From the NCBI GenBank assembly GCA_963678675.1, contig OY783200.1:25372190-25436189 (forward strand): a DNA stretch of 64,000 nt. Direction: 5' to 3'. Shown here in pieces: positions 24,762 through 49,179 of the stretch. The notes under the pieces are model-generated. The model made no database searches. It was not told where the DNA came from and saw only the letters and a list, made by a program, of their open reading frames with translations. A program made the position numbers and the translations under genes. This DNA is from Xiphydria camelus. Taxonomy: Eukaryota; Arthropoda; Insecta; Hymenoptera; Xiphydriidae. Positions within the stretch are counted from its first letter, which is position 1, and every line of letters starts with the position of its first letter.

Positions 24762-27700
24762 TCACTTGACCTTTCCGCCGTCGTTCCTGTCGTTGGTATC
24801 GTTCTCCATGTCGAACTTGTCCAGCTTGTCGAGTCTGAGGAACGATCCGACCATGGACCGAGCAACGGAAGCCGCTCTGCCGAATCCTCCGACAGCGGAG
24901 CTGGTGCCGCTCCCGCTCTGCGTCACGTTAACCGGCTTCTTGTCCGCCCAAATGTTGACGACGAACTTGAGCTCGGCAGTCAGCGCTTCGCCGAAAGTGA
25001 TCTGTAGAGGGAAAGTGGGAAAACTGAAGGAGAGTCCTCTCCGTTTGGAAGAGGGGCGGCGCGTATCATCGATTGCTCGATTGACCGACCGACCGACCTT
25101 CTCCGCCATCGCCACTTTACGCGCGTTCCATAGAAATTCGACGACGGCTATGACGAAGGACACGGCACACCCGCACATCAGCACGAGAAATACGCCACCA
25201 ACGTTGGCCATTCGCAATTCGCCAGTGCTGGACGACTGGTCGTCGTCTTCCGATTTGCAAGGTTCGCCCTTCCGCATGTCCTTCCACCACTTTTTCTTCA
25301 GATCCGCCAGCGTACCCTTTTCCTGGAGCTTGAGGACGGCGCCGCTGATGGTTGTTCGATAAGCCGAATCTGCAGAGCGGCAAGGCGGAAACGAGGCGGA
25401 GTATATCGCATGGATATGCATATGAGGTGTATATGTAGATGCAAAAGCCGCCAAGTCACATAGTCACATTTTTCTGAAATCTGAGTTGGATACGGGAGTT
25501 TGTTCTTTATAAGTAGGTACGTGCATAAGGTCGAACATAATTTAGGTGCAAATTCCACCTTAAACCGTTAATAATATTAAGTAGAAAATACGCTTGCAAC
25601 TGCACGTACTCATAAGGAACAAATTCCCGTGTCTGACTCGGATTTCACAAAATTGTGACTTGGCGGCTTTGAATCTAGTACATAATTATGTATGTATACC
25701 CCTCATATGTATATGTATGTATACGTACAACGAATAAATTGGTATACGAGGTGCAAGTACGCGAACGGGGCCGCTTACTCATAGGCATGGCGATCCCGTA
25801 TCCCTTGTTGTCGAGGAGACCACCGACTTGCATGAGCTTGCACTCCCTCTCCAATTTATACTCAATGGTGGTGGACTCCATGAAGAAGGCGTAACGCGGA
25901 TCCTTCAAGACCCGCTCGACCGCGGCGTCGTTGTCTTCCATGAAGACACTGGGCTTGGCGTCCGTCATTGCCGTCCACATGCGCTGATAGATGGACAGGT
26001 TCGACTCCTTGAAGAAGAGCGACGTCGAGCCGCCCTTGAGGACGCCGTACTTGATCTTGGTCTGCTTGGCCAGATCTTCGGCACTCTTGACCGTACTCTC
26101 CATCTTATCGGCCGTGAGGAAGGCGGCCAAATTGGCGGTATAAGACGACACGAAGATGAGCACGAAGAACCACCATAAGCTCGCCACCATCCTTATCGAG
26201 GGTGTTCTAAGTGCGAGGAAGGAAGGAACGGTATTCTTGCTCCCGAGTGATTGACGCGTTATCATGGCGATCTTATTACCTGGGAAGTATATCGGAGCCC
26301 TGCTGCATCAACGAGCCCATCGTCAGCCAAAGAGAGTTCGTCAGATCGAAGCTGTTCTCCAACTCCTCCGGATTCGGATTGCACGGGTGAGGATTGTTCC
26401 ACTCGCCGGGTGCGATTCTGAAACAACATGTCATCGCGATATCGACCAAAGATCGCGTCGGGGTGTTGAAATTGATTACCTCGCTTGTACGAAGAGCATG
26501 ATGGACACGCCCAAATAGGCCGTCGCCATATAGATCCAAACGTCGTTGCTGAACGGCGACAAGAAAGAGAAGAGTTTCGGCGGATTCTCCGCCGGTTTAC
26601 TGTACAGGATACTGATACCTGTACGTAGGAACGAGGGGAGAAGATTGTGAGATTACGTGGAAACGTAAAAGACGGCGGTCGCGCAAAAATCGCCGGGGGA
26701 AGCTGAATTTTACTTGCCGGTGGTCATGAATGGCATCGTAAAATCAACCGCCGTTTTGCGTTGATACGTAATCGTGAGGTCGCACAGGGCAAGATCGGCC
26801 GCCTGCAACGAGATGTAAAAGAGATCCTGTAATCGCCTCGCGATCTCGAACGAGATCCTCGCTCGCTCGCTCATTCGCTCTGCCTACGGATCAGGATTGA
26901 TCGGAAATACTTTCATCGCTCTTTAGAGGGTCGCTCCCCCCCCCCCCCAGCCCAGCCCAGCCCAGCCCAGCCCGAAAAGAAACGGAAGAATCGCGACAGA
27001 TCCGATCGAGTGTGATATCGGGAACGAGTTATACTTACGCGATCCAACAAGCGTTTGACGAGCCCGTTCCACGATTTGGTCTCCTTGTTGTAGGCACCGT
27101 ACTGCTTGTCGGGTACCAATTCGAATTCGTACTTGAAGTGGAGCAAGTTGGCGATCGCGTCGATGAGATCGATGCTATAACCCTCGTAGCGTTTATTCTC
27201 GATCAATATTCCTCGATTCGAGCCGTCCTTGACTTCCATGCAGTAGGGCGCTCCCTAAATGAAACGACGAATCCGGCAAACGCGTGACGAATAGTGGCGC
27301 GAGCGCTCATCGCGAAGATACTCGTCCCTCACCTCTTTGGTAGAGACCCTGAAGAACTTCTTCTCGATGCTCTTGGCGATGTCCCCCTCCAGCTCCTCGC
27401 TGCTCCTCGTCAGCCGAATCCCCTCCGTCGTCCAAATTCCCGTCTTCTTCATCCGATTCTGCTGATACTCAGCGATCGAGAGTTCGAAATCCCGACGACC
27501 TTTTTCATCGAAGGTCAATCGTCCGGTCAACTTGCCCTCCTTGGAGAACTGAACCGGTCGTACGAGTCATTGAGTGTACGCAAGGCGGAGGAACGAATTG
27601 TACGAGAAGAGGCTTCGTCCGTGCGTAGCGAGCGCGAGAACGAAAATGGGAGCATTTTTTTCGCGCCACGACTCGACTGATGGAATACCTCCCAATCCGT

Positions 27701-38077: not shown

Positions 38078-39612
38078 ATGACCACATCCTGCACCCTGCT
38101 GGTGCTCCTCGTCGTCGGTACCGCCGTTGCTCTTCCCGACATCATCAGGATAGGTGAGTACGCAACTCGCGGGGAGAGCTACGGTTCATTCGCTTTGCAT
38201 TTGGTAACGTTTGACAAAGCGATTCACTCTCGATGCGTTATCCCACTCGGCGATCACGGGGGAGAACGCGCGTATATGTATGTATGTATGTATATCTTAG
38301 CAATACTACGTAGAATTCTCCACGCAGGGGGGCTTTTTCATCCGTCGAACGACAAGCAGGAAGTGGCTTTTCGCTATGCCGTGGAAAAGATCAACGACAA
38401 CAGAGAGATCCTGCCCAGGTCGCGCCTCAGTGCTCAGATCGAACAGATATCGCCCCAGGATAGCTTCCATGCCTCGAAGCGCGGTGAGTAGATCGGGTAG
38501 GCCGTGCTTGCTCGTGAAGCCTTGGAAACGTCGCGAGGCGGCCGTACGTGATCGATATTGGCATCGGCGATTCGATACGTGTACCAGTACCTATACGCGA
38601 GCTGTCACCCCCTTCGCGACAATGGCAACATCTTCATCAATTTCACGAACTACGAATAACGTTTCCTATTTGAGAGGGAGGGAGGGAGGGAGAGGGGGAG
38701 AGGAGGGGAGAGAGAGAGAGAGAGAGAGAGAGAGATATCATTCTTCTTCTCCCCCGCTAACAGTAGATCGAACGAAGCACCCCCGTCGAATTGTCGCGTC
38801 GACGACGCCGAGAGAAAGAAAGAACAAAACGCAGCGGTACACCGCGTAAGTATTGTATAATCTTCGAACTCCTCGGAAACGGGTGGCTTCGGTATAGCTC
38901 GATTCTGAAATACTCGTTAATCGTTCCCCTTCGATCAATGAATTGGAGGATGATTCGTACCTCGTAGCGAGGTAGTTGAACAAAAAATCACGCTATCGAA
39001 AGTCTAGAGTCTTTTTCCAGTATATCGAATATAATCTTGCTGCACTCGCGGAGTGGCTAAGCCGAAGGGAATCCGTATAATTCCGCATCATGCTGTCCCT
39101 ATAGTAGTCGCGAACTTGCTCGCGTATACCCGGTATACCACGGTTGGTCTCGACCATTCTCGATGGATTCGGAAAGTCGGATTTTTGTAATGCGAGTATA
39201 CGCGCGTATTCTTACAGTGTGCCATCTGTTGAAAACTGGAGTCGCGGCAATCTTCGGGCCGCAAAGTGCGCATACGGCATCCCACGTGCAGAGCATCTGC
39301 GATACTATGGAGATACCACATTTGGAGACACGCTGGGATTACAGACTCAGACGCGAGAGCTGCCTCGTCAATTTGTATCCACATCCCACCACGTTATCCA
39401 AGGTAACGCAGAACACGATGGCGATTCGGTCTCTCTTCGCGTGTTTCGTCGGGGATAATGGTAGAGTTCTCTCGAGACGGCTCTTGTATCACTCGTCCTT
39501 TGCCAATATTTACCAACTTGTGAGGAAGAGCTTCTCCGGAGAAGTGTTGCGGCTCTTGTATCACTCGGGCTACTACTGCACCGCCCTTTAAATGCTGACT
39601 TTCCACTCACTT

Positions 39613-39676
<64 letters not shown>

Positions 39677-40042
39677 ATTGTAACTCTTCCGCTTCCGCTT
39701 CGAGATTGGCTAGTTTCGCCGTGATTGACGTTGATGCGATGCGAAAAGTGATGCATCGCGCGAAGCCGTTCCTTCCTAGCGATGCAGGGGAAGAACGAGT
39801 TTTCCGTTTCAGGCGTACGTCGACTTGGTGAAGGCATGGGGTTGGAAGAGTTTCACTATAATCTACGAGAACAACGAAGGGCTGGTGAGGCTGCAAGAAC
39901 TGCTAAAGGCGCACGGCCCCAGTGAATTCCCCATCACTGTCAGACAACTGGGCGAAGGCACCGATTACCGGTGAGACGAATCGAGTCGAGATGTCGGAGC
40001 GTCAGCGCTAAAATGATTTTTCGTCTCAATCCTCTTCCCCCT

Positions 40043-40078
<36 letters not shown>

Positions 40079-41078
40079 CCTCCCCCTTCTAATCCCACGC
40101 CGTTCTGCCGACGAGAGACGATCAATCTCTCATATTTTCGTTCCGCATACGTTGCAGGCCACTGCTGAAGCAAATTAAGAATTCGGCGGAATCGCACATC
40201 GTGCTCGACTGTTCGACAGAACGTATTTACGACGTGTTGAAGCAGGCGCAGGAGATCGCGATGATGAGCGACTATCACAGTTACCTCGTCACTTCCCTGG
40301 TAAGTTCCCTCGATAAATAGGACCAGTGGGCGATCAAGGATCAGTATTGCCATCCCCGAACTCGCCGTCACCCGCGTCGTCGAACCTGCAGTTCCAAATG
40401 CTCTTCGCCAACGCATACACCTCATATCGCAGGACTTGCACAGCGTTAACCTGGAGGAATTCAAGTACGGCGGCACCAATATCACTGCTTTTCGACTGGT
40501 CGATCCGGAGAAACCCGAAATTCAGAGGGTGGTGCGCGATTGGATTTACGGCGAACAGCGTTACGGCCGCAAACTCGATATGGGTCAGAGCACCAACAAG
40601 GTAACGATCCTCCGTCTCGCGCGCTTATTTCAGTTTCGGCTTCCGTGGCCATCTAATTCTTTCGACATGGTTTCACGTCAACCGAGAGCAGGACAATCTT
40701 ACCTTCGTAAAGGTGAGTTTTTTGCGGTAACGATCCTAGTGCCAAATGAAATTCGAACGAGTGATTTTCGCGCGATTTTCGGAACCGCGATCGAGTCCGA
40801 GAGTACGTGTACCTATATCAACGTTGCAGACCGAAACCGCTTTGATGTACGACGCGGTTCGACTTTTCGCGAAGGCTTTACATGACCTGGACTCGTCCCA
40901 GCAAATCGACATCAAGCCGCTATCCTGCGAATCAGTCGATACTTGGCCCCACGGTTATTCGCTCATCAATTACATGAAAATCGTAAGCACTCTCAACGCG
41001 GCGATATACTGCGTGCTTCCATTCACGAGCTTCTACATACGTACATATGTGTATACATATTCGCTACAAGCGAAATTC

Positions 41079-41126
<48 letters not shown>

Positions 41127-42720
41127 TCTCACGGGTTTAAGTGCGCAGGTCGAGATCAAAGGTCTCACGGGAGTTATCAAGTTCGACCATCAGGGCTTCC
41201 GATCCGACTTTGTCCTGGACATCGTGGAATTGAATAGCAAAGAGGGTCTAAAGAAGATCGGCACTTGGAACAGTACCGAGGGTGTGAATTTCACTAGCAC
41301 CTACGGGGACGTGTACACGCAAATCGTGGAGAGCCTGCAGAACAAAACTTTTATAGTTACGACGATTCTGGTAAGTCTCGCGTCGATTCCACAACCTTGC
41401 GCGGCGTAATCGCTTCGACGTAAGCTCCACGAATGGTGAACTCCATCTTGAAACGGAATACGAAGCTCGCGATAGTCCGATGCGCGCTCGCGCGCTCCGA
41501 ACGCATACGTATACGTATGTATGTATGTATGTATGCACTCGTCCTCGCAGACCAAGCCCTACTTCATGAGGAAGCAATCCACCGAGGAGCTCACCGGAGA
41601 TGCCCAATTCGAAGGCTACAGCGTCGATCTGATTCACGAGATATCCCGGATCCTCGGCTTCAATTACACGTTTCGACTGGCGCCCGACGGTCGTTACGGC
41701 TCACAGAACAGAGAGACCAAGGAGTGGGACGGAATGATCAAGGAGCTGCTGGATCAGAAGGCGGATCTCGCGATAGCCGACCTCACCATCACTTACGAGA
41801 GAGAGCAGGCCGTGGACTTTAGTATGCCCTTCATGAATCTAGGCATCAGCATCCTCTACCGCAAACCGATCAAGCAGCCGCCGAACCTCTTCTCGTTCCT
41901 GAGTCCGTTGAGCCTGGACGTTTGGATCTACATGGCAACCGCCTACCTGGGAGTTTCGGTGCTGCTCTTCATCCTGGCCAGGCGAGTACTCCCCCTCTCT
42001 GCTCGACCATCCCGGCCGCCGGCCTCGTATTCCAAGGGCCGCCCGGGAGTCCGCGCTACCCCTCTTTTTCTTCTCGCTCCTCGAGACTCGCGCTCGCGGT
42101 CTCAACGCGATGTCGCCCGGTGTTGCTCGGTTTAGATTCACCCCGTACGAGTGGTACAATCCGCATCCCTGCGACCAAAATCCGGACCACCTGGAAAATC
42201 GCTTCAAGTTGCTCAACTGCATGTGGTTCACCATCGGCTCCCTCATGCGTCAAGGTTACGACGTTTTGCCCAAGTAAGCTCGGGGGAATAGCGCGAGACG
42301 TAGGACGTGGCGCGGTGGCGGGTGCGCGGGCGAGTCGCGTCCAAAGTCGCGCCCTACATCGGAGTCGTTGCGACGGGAGCGGGAGTGAGTCTCGAGGTTC
42401 GAGAGATACGACGACGAATTGAGTCCAAGGTTACGGCCCTGATATCCACTAATCCCGTCCCTACCCTTTCGCGTGTCCGCAGGTTCAGCCCTTACGAGTG
42501 GGAGAATCCCCATCCGTGCAACGGGCAGTCCGAGGTCCTCGAGAACGAGTTCACCCTCATGAACTCGCTCTGGTTCACCATAGGCTCGCTCATGCAGCAA
42601 GGCTCCGATATAGCGCCGAAGTAAGTCTCCGCGATGCGCCCTTTCGTCCTTTCGCCGTCGAATCGTTTTACGATGCGGAACGCGAGGCGCGCGCATCCTC
42701 GGAACGCCTCTCGTTGAATG

Positions 42721-42753
<33 letters not shown>

Positions 42754-43187
42754 GTCGGCCAGAGTTCACCGCTCCGTGATACGTATGCTATATCGTCGGC
42801 TTGCTGCAGCGCGGCGCCCGTGTATCCTCCCGACGCCTCGACGACGTATATATACGCGCGACTTTAGATGATTGCGGGAGCACTCGCGCACGCGCACGCG
42901 TCCCGTACCCGCTTCCCTCCGCTTTCCTCCGTAGGGCGGTATCGACGCGGATGGTGGCCGGCATGTGGTGGTTCTTCACCCTCATCATGATATCCTCCTA
43001 CACCGCTAATCTGGCGGCCTTCCTCACGGTGGAGAGGATGGAGTCGCCCATCGATAGCGCGGAGGACCTCGAGAAGCAGACCAAGATCAAGTACGGAGCC
43101 GTCCGGGGCGGTAGCACTGCCGGTTTCTTCAGGGTATGTACATACACACCGCACAGTGTTTGTTCGACGAATTGATCCCCCCCCCCA

Positions 43188-43221
<34 letters not shown>

Positions 43222-44042
43222 GGGTGAATCTAGGACTCCAACTTCTCGACGTACCAGCGGATGTGGAAGAATATGGAGTCGGCGAGGCCATCGGTGTTCA
43301 CCGCTCACAACGACGAGGGCGAAAAGCGAGTGGCCAAGGGGAAAGGGAGTTACGCGTTCTTCATGGAGTCCACGTCGATCGAATACGTGATCGAGAGGGA
43401 CTGCGAGCTCACGCAGGTCGGCGGGTTGCTCGACTCCAAGGGATATGGCATCGCCATGCCGCCGAGTAAGCGCGCCCTCGGTCACCGTATTCACGAGGAG
43501 AGGGGGTGGAGAACGGCACATTTCATCCGGCACCCGCCGTTCCCCGTTTCAGATTCACCGTACCGGACGGCCATAAGCGGCGCGGTCCTCAAGCTGCAGG
43601 AGGAAGGAAAGCTTCACATTCTCAAGACGAGATGGTGGAAGGAGAAACGCGGTGGAGGCGCGTGCAGGGTACGATATCGCGACCGATCCCCCTCTTTCAA
43701 CGGACAGGGCGTATACTATGTAGGTAGCTCTTTACGCGTTCAAATTCTCTCTCGCAGGACGACACGTCCAAGGGAAGCTCGACGGCCAACGAACTTGGCC
43801 TCGCGAACGTAGGAGGTGTTTTCGTGGTGCTGATGGGTGGCATGGGGGTCGCTTGCGTCATTGCCGTGTGCGAATTCGTGTGGAAGAGTCGGAAGGTCGC
43901 GATAGAGGAACGGGTGAGCGAGTGGACCGCGTAACGTAGCGCACGTGCGCGCGAATGATCGGGTACCGCACGATCTTGCATTTTTCAGAAGCAAAAGTCC
44001 ACCGGCAAATCCATCTGCGACGGTTTCACCGATCTACGCTAA
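38078..44042 (+). CDS. Kainate-type ionotropic glutamate receptor B, with alternative pore exons
   Basis: Glutamate-gated channel subunit of 861 residues when one pore exon is used. Exons: 38078-38153, 38328-38483, 39218-39402, 39813-39970, 40158-40299, 40433-40600, 40830-40982, 41149-41370, 41551-41981, then 42136-42273 or 42483-42620, 42935-43133, 43234-43465, 43553-43668, 43758-43913, 43989-44042. All phases agree. Signal peptide: [14 protein letters not shown]. The amino-terminal domain has [14 protein letters not shown]1 has DLTITYERE with the ligand Arg. M1 is [18 protein letters not shown], the M3 gate is [13 protein letters not shown]2 has [10 protein letters not shown], and the M4 helix lies in exon 43758-43913. 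The tail ends GFTDLR. Two tandem exons encode the pore (separate entries). The upstream exon ends in a GC donor. AATAAA at 44315-44320 is a likely poly(A) signal. Closest relatives are the kainate/KaiR1D-type insect receptors. Confidence 0.94.
39619..39674. repeat. (CT)n microsatellite
   Basis: CT run in the intron upstream of receptor B exon 39813-39970. Similar pyrimidine runs precede other receptor B exons (40042-40083, 41080-41125, 43189-43222). Confidence 0.92.
42136..42273 (+). CDS. Receptor B alternative pore exon a (Arg at Q/R site)
   Basis: A 138-nt exon with acceptor TTTAG and donor GTAAGC. Read with the AG left over from exon 41551-41981 it encodes [13 protein letters not shown] through [15 protein letters not shown]. 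The codon at the Q/R position (42248-42250) is CGT, Arg. Kainate and AMPA receptor pores normally read Met-Gln-Gln-Gly here, and Arg at this site is known in vertebrate GluA2 and GluK1/2 to lower calcium permeability and polyamine block. Start and end phases equal those of exon b, so either can be used. Confidence 0.88.
42483..42620 (+). CDS. Receptor B alternative pore exon b (Gln at Q/R site)
   Basis: A 138-nt exon with acceptor CCGCAG and donor GTAAGT, 209 nt downstream of exon a. It encodes [13 protein letters not shown] through [15 protein letters not shown]. The Q/R codon (42595-42597) is CAG, Gln, the usual genomic form. Same length and phase as exon a. Using both would insert 46 in-frame codons and duplicate the pore loop, so exclusive use is expected. 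Confidence 0.9.
42721..42753. repeat. (CACGGTC)n heptamer repeat
   Basis: Four and a half perfect CACGGTC units in the receptor B intron between pore exon b and the M3 exon. Confidence 0.88.
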
Positions 44043-47157: not shown

Positions 47158-49179
47158 GAGGCTGCCATTGCGTCCCATTTTCGAAATTCGCCTTGTTCTT
47201 CCAGACCGCGCCCTACGGAATGCTGAAGAAATCCGAGGACCAGAAGCGCGGCAACGACCAATACGAGGGCTTTGGCATCGACATCATTCAGGAACTCGCC
47301 AAGATGCTCGGCTTTAATTATACCTTCCAAGTGCAAGCGGATAGCGTTTACGGCTCTTATAATCGGGAAACCGGCAAGTGGAACGGCATGATCCGGAAAC
47401 TGATAGACAACGTGAGTCGCGACGTCCATTCGGGACGAATCGCGCGCGTGCCTCTGTACACGAATCAATTTTCGCGCCGCAGGAAGCCGACCTGGCAATC
47501 ACGGACTTGACCATCACGTCCGATCGCGAGAGCGCCGTCGATTTCACTATGCCGTTCATGAGCCTGGGCATCAGCATTCTTTACAGAAAACCATCCAAGG
47601 CACCGCCTAGCCTCTTCTCCTTTCTGTTACCATTCTCGAAACAAGTGTGGCTCTACCTGATGGGTGCATTTATATTCGTGACGCTGTTACTCTTCGTTAA
47701 TGGCAGACTCTGCCCGGCTGAGTGGAACAATCCCTATCCCTGCGTCGAGGAGCCGGATCAGCTGGAGAATCAGCTGACTCTGAAAAATTCGTTCTGGTTC
47801 ACCATCGGCAGCATCATGCAGCAGGGATCCGAGATTGCCCCGATGTGAGTACTCGTGGAAGGCCAGTGCCTCCTCCCCTCCGATACGCACACACCTGCGT
47901 TCCATTGATGGTTCCCGATTGCCCACTCTCCGTCCACAGAGGCATCTCGACGAGGATGGTCGCGTCCTGCTGGTGGTTTTTTTGCTTGATTATGGTATCG
48001 TCTTACACGGCAAACTTGGCCGCCTTTCTGACCTCGGAATCTAATATGATACGCATAAGAAATGCCGAGGACCTGGCCAATCAGGCGGAGATCAAGTACG
48101 GGGCAAAGGGGGATGGTTCCACCTTCTCCTTCTTCAAAGTGAGTACCGAGTTCGATGAGGCGGAGAGGCGATTAGAGAGGTTAAGAGAGAGGGAGAGAGT
48201 CGGCGCTCGCACACCCACACCCGTGTTTCAAGGACTCCAACTACTCGACGTACAAGAAGATGTACGATTACATGGTCGCCAATGCGAAGGAAGTACTGAC
48301 CAAGACAAACGAAGAGGGTATAGACAAGGTTCTCCACGAGGACTACGCCTTTCTCATGGAATCCTCGTCCATCGAGTACGTCTCCGAGAGGAGGTGCAAC
48401 ATCAGCCAGGTCGGAGGACTGCTGGACGCCAAGGGTTACGGTATAGCCATGAAAAAGAGTAAGTCTCGCCGGTACGACTCGGTCGGTCGATTCTGCGATG
48501 ATACGATCTTTTTCGCTTCCAACAGACGCTCCTTATCGGAACGCCTTGAGTACGGGCGTGTTGAAACTTCAAGAGAGCGGCGTTCTCTACAAGCTCAAAA
48601 CGAAATGGTGGAAGGAAAAGCGAGGCGGAGGAAAGTGTTCGGTGAGTGTCGAACGAAGCTCGCGCCGAGAAGGCTTCAATTCTCGCACGCGTCGGTTCGC
48701 TCTCTACGAATGGAAGGATACGCGCGCGAAGGCGTCTCTTTCTCTTACAGTCCGAAGCCGGTTCGGGCGATCCCAGCCCGCTGGAGCTCGCCAACGTCGG
48801 CGGCATCTTTCTCGTTCTCGTCGTCGGAGTTGCTCTCTCCTTCTTCATCACCGTCTACGAGTTGCTCTGGCACGTGGGCTGCACTTCCTGCAAGGAGGAG
48901 GTGAGAGCCTCGTATGACCTCAGCGCGCATCGTACGTAGACACTGACGCGAATTGCTCTATGAAACGTCGATGGTCTTTTTCTTCAGGTGTCCACGAAGG
49001 AGGAGCTCATCGAGGAGGTCAAGTTCATCGTCAAGTGCAGCGGTACGACGAAACCGGTCAGAAGGAGGAAGGTGTTTTCGGCAAAAGAGGAAAGTCAGGA
49101 GGACAGCGCGGAAGGATGCTCCCTTCCTTACGGATTCGTGCCGACCGTCGTTACGACCTGCATCGACGACGATAAGTAG
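45446..49179 (+). CDS. Kainate-type ionotropic glutamate receptor C
   Basis: Third receptor of the cluster, 894 residues. Exons: 45446-45524, 45589-45738, 45794-45975, 46040-46197, 46282-46423, 46503-46805, 46877-47095, 47205-47411, 47483-47844, 47940-48138, 48233-48458, 48526-48641, 48751-48900, 48988-49179. A signal peptide ([11 protein letters not shown]) precedes an amino-terminal domain with [14 protein letters not shown]1 has [14 protein letters not shown] with the ligand Arg. The pore reads [12 protein letters not shown] (Gln at the Q/R site). M3 is [13 protein letters not shown]2 has [10 protein letters not shown], and M4 is followed by a longer basic, Ser-rich tail ([19 protein letters not shown]). 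Unlike A and B, S1b, M1 and pore are on one exon (47483-47844), so introns were lost here or gained in A/B. AATAAA at 49239-49244. Confidence 0.93.

Follow-up and report, generated by a model that had tools for sequence, protein, structure and literature searches.

RNA editing at the Q/R site of ionotropic glutamate receptors (iGluRs) is a classic example of the process, and its function there is vital. In vertebrate GluA2, GluK1 and GluK2, A-to-I editing at this site lets one gene supply both a Gln and an Arg form. Two alternative exons of equal length that stem from one duplication in an iGluR gene are also known, the flip and flop exons of vertebrate AMPA receptors, and there are GluA2 genes of fish that carry a genome-encoded Arg at the Q/R site. 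To our knowledge, these fish genes have no alternative Gln exon.

The locus described here lies in a 64-kb stretch of Xiphydria camelus DNA, the whole of which we analysed (the window), and can be set beside each of these systems. It is a kainate receptor gene with two adjacent pore exons, A and B. Like vertebrate Q/R editing, it involves the same residue, the same Gln/Arg alternative and the same receptor superfamily, and one gene would supply both forms. It differs in that the Arg of exon A (CGT) stands in the DNA and splicing would make the choice; an exon-intron duplex resembling that of GluA2 is predicted on exon B. With flip/flop it shares alternative, equal-length duplicated exons in an iGluR gene. 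Flip and flop, however, lie in the ligand-binding domain and alter gating, whereas exons A and B supply the pore loop together with the selectivity site. A Q/R-site Arg in the genome is common to exon A and fish GluA2. The mutually exclusive exons of Drosophila Cav2 (cacophony) and nAChR alpha6 are likewise duplicated exons that tune the channel properties of one gene, but they belong to other channel families, and the titles and abstracts searched on them make no link to the iGluR selectivity residue.

We consider it likely that the alternative pore exons A and B form an ancient pair, that exon A gained its genome-encoded Arg in the hymenopteran line, and that splicing yields Q- and R-type subunits. 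Among open papers searched by title and start of abstract, neither the exon pair nor the hymenopteran Arg is described; the sequences themselves are public.

Structure of receptor B and its two pore exons

We modelled the gene, a kainate receptor of putative KaiR1D type (receptor B; coding region 38078..44042, forward strand), by joining 16 exons by hand, both pore exons included, and checking every splice site. The frame is open with either pore exon, giving 861 residues from 15 of the 16 exons at a time, and tblastn with the proteins of relatives recovers the same exons. The best PDB matches are GluK1, GluK2 and GluK3 over nearly the whole length (E down to 5.9e-268). Receptor B is a kainate-type iGluR by this sequence match, which covers the ATD, the LBD and the channel, and Pfam Lig_chan matches its pore part. 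Several close relatives are called 'subunit 1D', and receptor B may be an orthologue of Drosophila KaiR1D.

The shared upstream exon (41551..41981, forward), which encodes the ligand-binding lobe and M1, is followed by pore exon A (42136..42273, forward), pore exon B (42483..42620, forward) and a shared downstream exon with M3 (42935..43133, forward). Exons A and B are adjacent, homologous, 138 nt long each and identical in phase. The junctions AG/A TTC in one and AG/G TTC in the other (slash at the splice) both read Arg-Phe after the upstream exon, and both exons finish in ..AA/G. They are identical at 30 of 47 residues and in 66.7% of their DNA, and the differences fall on 12/47 first, 9/47 second and 25/46 third codon positions. 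Both have AG acceptors and GTAAG donors, which are ordinary U2-type sites, and the intron between them measures 209 nt. The upstream donor common to both (41982) is GC (GCGAGT), the sole non-GT donor among 15 in the model.

At the Q/R site, exon A has CGT (Arg; 42248-42250) and exon B has CAG (Gln; 42595-42597). The two same-phase exons and their codons are thus as the initial annotation had read them. Arg602 of receptor B aligns on Gln621 of the GluK2 chain, which we take to be the Q/R site, with zero gaps from M1 to M3. Since the DNA reads CGT, the Arg of exon A as a product of editing is ruled out. Scanning all six frames of the window with a pore-exon profile gives four regions above threshold: exons A and B and one exon for each neighbouring receptor (frames 26279-26596, reverse strand, and 47363-47845, forward strand). 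Both of these single exons carry Gln, so that the earlier description of receptors A and C as having one Gln version each is correct within the window. A search for further copies among viral contigs found none.

A possible in-frame micro-exon of 21 nt (DNLTFVK; 40692-40712) lies between AG and GTGAGT in the same window, and a similar insert stands directly before TALMYDA in seven of the fetched proteins.

Age of the exon pair and origin of the arginine

Three protein searches (the best 120 of 315 matches; the best 120 of 5724, of which 57 were new; and all 15 matches of the third) gave 192 different proteins. A pattern located the pore exon in 189 of these, yielding 227 exon peptides, and the remaining three (P0188, P0191 and P0193) show Gln by eye. 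We typed the peptides as A or B from their last residues only, so that the A and B sets also include a third exon type and certain paralogues. Among the matches listed, 126 of the 127 B-typed peptides have Gln and one, from a crab, has Cys; the 90 A-typed peptides divide into 70 Gln, 14 Arg, 5 Gly and 1 Ala; and the ten untyped peptides into 9 Gln and 1 Arg. Arg pore peptides number 15 in total among these matches.

Every named hymenopteran protein that displays exon A among the matches listed has Arg there (11/11). They come from bees and vespids (Dufourea, Apis cerana, Polistes, Vespa, Mischocyttarus, Bombus, Andrena and Osmia) and from Aulacocentrum, Venturia and Diachasmimorpha. A twelfth Arg peptide, in P0181, has the same exon sequence as Bombus and Andrena. 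Among these matches, all 20 named hymenopteran proteins that display exon B carry Gln in it. Thirteen other named hymenopteran representatives (Sirex, Cephus, Orussus, three ants, two cynipoids, two bees and three braconids) display exon B only, exon A being hidden in them because the clusters were made at 90% identity. Outside Hymenoptera, exon A usually has Gln among the matches listed. Arg occurs there in one record of the louse Menopon and, in Clastoptera and Lycorma (both Auchenorrhyncha), in a kainate paralogue other than this one.

Several of these sequences have features of their own. Exon A of the Menopon gallinae record (P0133, flagged UNVERIFIED_CONTAM) reads MRQSCN, with Arg at the Q/R site and the acidic residue at +4 gone. 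In the different paralogue of Clastoptera (P0023) and Lycorma (P0042), the repeat unit covers M1 as well as the pore loop; the first copy reads LLRQG and the second LMQQG, and it looks like an independent Arg/Gln pair. The crab Chionoecetes (P0021) has one pore copy with Cys at the site (FLCQG) and another that reads VMQQG. Six kainate-like proteins (P0074, P0108, P0109, P0110, P0112 and P0118), the named ones being of cockroach and termites, read MGQG or MAQG, with Gly or Ala as the Q/R-site residue. MQQS, with Ser for Gly two residues past the Q/R site, is found in 24 A-typed Gln peptides, borne by Lepidoptera, a caddisfly and a leafhopper (e.g., P0158, P0132 and P0066).

The pair also occurs as annotated isoforms of other insects. 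We compared 15 isoform pairs and retained ten from ten species (a mayfly, two locusts, a termite, a leafhopper, a beetle, a moth and three butterflies); these show no differences across the 524 to 880 residues that lie outside the pore exon, and inside it they agree at only 24 to 34 of 46 residues. The five left out are those of Hetaerina (552/839 outside the exon) and Ephemera (389/638), which represent different genes, and those of Cacopsylla (811/812), Rhynchophorus (450/455) and a second pair of S. gregaria (789/797), which differ outside the exon and so are uncounted. In sets picked by pattern (canonical starts and ends, a subset of the peptides), hymenopteran exon A has a mean identity of 0.691 to exon A of other insects, 0.658 to their exon B and 0.642 to hymenopteran exon B; hymenopteran exon B has 0.785 to exon B of other insects and 0.628 to their exon A. 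Taken together, the isoform pairs and these identities put the origin of the pair before the insect orders sampled, with Arg a later change in Hymenoptera.

Judged from the sequences, then, the exon pair predates Hymenoptera, and Arg is a hymenopteran change inside an older alternative exon. The initial annotation had proposed that this insect obtained the switch by exon duplication and alternative splicing. Duplicated pore exons are there, and they are used alternatively in the annotated isoforms of other insects; duplication as the origin of the switch is not supported, as the pair predates Hymenoptera and its first member usually has Gln elsewhere. A duplication specific to the present insect or to Hymenoptera is ruled out by the ten other species.

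We also built a backbone tree from the protein minus the pore exon, using the window and 28 chosen relatives. The window falls inside a clade of 21 hymenopteran rows (support 100/98), and a group of Orussus and Apocrita excludes it (99/98); its order with respect to Sirex and Cephus is not firm (89/63). This position is probably that of a sawfly or woodwasp relative. Arg is common to the window, bees, vespids and parasitoid wasps, which places the change before that split unless it has arisen twice. A tree of the pore peptides groups exon A of the window with the hymenopteran Arg exons; with 46 columns and 61 of 103 inner branches open, it bears on that grouping only.

Exon A could in principle be a decaying, unused duplicate in which Arg arose by drift. 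When the window is compared with other Hymenoptera in the pattern-picked sets, conservation is indeed lower in exon A than in exon B (mean identity 0.839 versus 0.911; best match 91% versus 100%). However, its frame and splice sites are intact, its differences fall mostly at third codon positions, and the same Arg is retained in bees, vespids, an ichneumonid and braconids. We therefore regard decay as very improbable and retain the reading of exon A as an alternative exon.

Splicing of the two exons and predicted properties of the subunits

The reading frame is kept with both pore exons in or both out. Given this, an intron of 209 nt and ordinary U2-type sites, the sequence does not impose exclusive use of one exon. 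The databases contain exon A alone, exon B alone and both in a single chain. The Arg exon alone, joined to both common exons, is found in models of Andrena, Osmia, Venturia and Diachasmimorpha. P0186, a contig of 1177 bases with a read-through of 352 residues, has an A-type Gln exon joined directly to the M3 exon, as in a spliced transcript.

Tandem chains make up 34 of the 189 parsed proteins, seven with the Arg exon followed by B and 27 with an A-typed Gln exon followed by a B-typed one; in three of the 27 (P0016, P0018 and P0019) the second exon is of the third type. Some tandem chains carry RefSeq isoform numbers (Vespa X12, Bombus X4, Helicoverpa and Spodoptera litura), others are bare predictions, and one (P0020) is apparently of transcriptome origin. 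If the exons were mostly spliced in tandem, the protein would gain 46 residues and a second pore loop, and the result would be a non-functional or dominant-negative chain and no Q/R choice. The numbered isoforms among these chains speak for this reading. Against it stand the single-exon isoform pairs of ten species and the Arg-only models of four Hymenoptera, and unreviewed gene predictions, which are prone to keep every open exon, account for many of the tandem chains. Predominant tandem splicing is, in our view, improbable.

Alternative use of the two exons is thus the reading that we retain. The mutual exclusion claimed in the initial annotation agrees with the same isoform pairs and Arg-only models, but in its strict form it is put in doubt by the tandem chains, RefSeq isoforms among them, and we prefer 'alternative' to 'mutually exclusive' on their account.

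Four of the tandem kainate receptor chains (P0016, P0017, P0018 and P0019, from a dragonfly, two ostracods and a mayfly) contain a third kind of pore exon, which reads WHNCGSLMQQG or similar.

A possible stem around exon A is formed by a 26-nt arm in the intron before it (42072..42097, forward) that is 81% complementary to a partner arm in the intron after it (42379..42404, forward). For this intron pair (introns 1 and 2), one of three tested, 2 of 400 shuffles are as good, and we treat the stem as a lead only. The best stems between introns 2 and 3 (77/400 shuffles as good) and introns 1 and 3 (67/400) are ordinary.

In X. camelus, the splice choice would make a single gene the source of Q-type and R-type subunits. 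If R subunits behave like those of edited GluA2 and GluK2, their presence in a tetramer should reduce calcium permeability and conductance and weaken polyamine block. Vertebrate AMPA and kainate receptors become calcium-impermeable when the Q/R site holds Arg, which also affects polyamine block, and channels with four Arg conduct poorly (PMC12226733, PMC6307864). All-R channels of receptor B would likewise be expected to conduct poorly, and the R form would most likely act in mixed tetramers. Against a simple transfer of the vertebrate effects, rectification rose in a placozoan epsilon receptor that was given an Arg, although its inward calcium current fell (PMC12226733).

Of 10 distinct Arg exons, 4 have lost the acidic residue at +4, compared with 4 of 103 Gln exons (Fisher 0.0019, kinship uncorrected; the test overstates independence because two of the four Arg exons are related paralogues). 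This loss hints that polyamine binding may be relaxed in such exons. Exon A of the window keeps Asp at +4. A study of Drosophila KaiR1D reportedly engineered the Gln-to-Arg change at the Q/R site.

A candidate editing duplex on exon B

The CAG codon of exon B lies in one arm of a candidate editing duplex. The exonic arm (42593..42614, forward) is complementary at 19 of 22 positions to an arm in the following intron (42787..42808, forward), and the candidate duplex consists of two 9-bp blocks with a small internal loop between them. Shuffled versions of the intron never do as well, either over the codon (0/3000) or anywhere in exon B (0/600). Its energy is -47.7, compared with -33.5 (sd 3.0) in shuffles (0/1000 as low), and its score is 14.5, compared with 6 to 10 for the other 14 pairs of exon and downstream intron in receptor B. 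The pair A42596-U42805 has a probability of 1.00 in folds of 452, 860 and 1152 nt. A similar duplex was sought at exon A and at the two neighbouring receptors, and none was found there. The loop between the arms holds a perfect tandem repeat of 7 nt (CACGGTC, 4.7 copies; 42721-42753).

Random windows of the same size from the 64 kb reach the duplex score in 21 of 1500 cases and, in a separate run, in 47 of 3000 (27 complex and 20 low-complexity). These rates, with 12 of 3000 windows as good at the same offset, put the chance level closer to 0.4% than to zero. Taking that offset-matched rate as the local control, we find the codon of exon B inside a predicted exon-intron duplex that resembles the GluA2 editing substrate. 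A 1993 study by Higuchi is said to concern the exon-intron base pairing that directs the editing of GluA2.

Exon B might accordingly be edited itself, with ADAR converting its Gln to Arg and the same residue being set by both splicing and editing. The 22-nt inverted repeat over the CAG codon points in this direction, as do its advantage over all intron shuffles, in energy and over the other exon-intron pairs of the gene, and the predicted pairing of the codon's central A. Random windows of the 64 kb, however, reach the same score at the rates given above. Bumblebees show abundant ADAR editing, which would favour such a conversion, but kainate receptors do not appear in the main text of that report in the portion available (PMC6453909). 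We regard editing of exon B as doubtful, though conceivable. It is compatible with the reading of an ancient alternative pair with a hymenopteran Arg, alongside which it fits, and is no substitute for the exon pair.

Combining these observations, two RNA routes might set the selectivity residue: splicing to an Arg exon held since before the Apocrita split, and A-to-I editing of the Gln of exon B, guided by the intronic arm. Insects would then have gained Arg in alternative pore exons on three or more occasions (in Hymenoptera, in the louse and in the second paralogue of Auchenorrhyncha). We think this combined reading unlikely as a whole; if it is true, splicing can replace or back up Q/R editing.

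Under the more probable reading, an ancient pair whose exon A became Arg in Hymenoptera, the older Gln/Gln pair of other insects implies a further role of the pair, onto which the Q/R difference was added. Splicing may set the passage of calcium through the channel in receptor B. If an insect order does carry the edited residue in its DNA and relies on splice choice to include it, splicing would control how many calcium-poor subunits are made.
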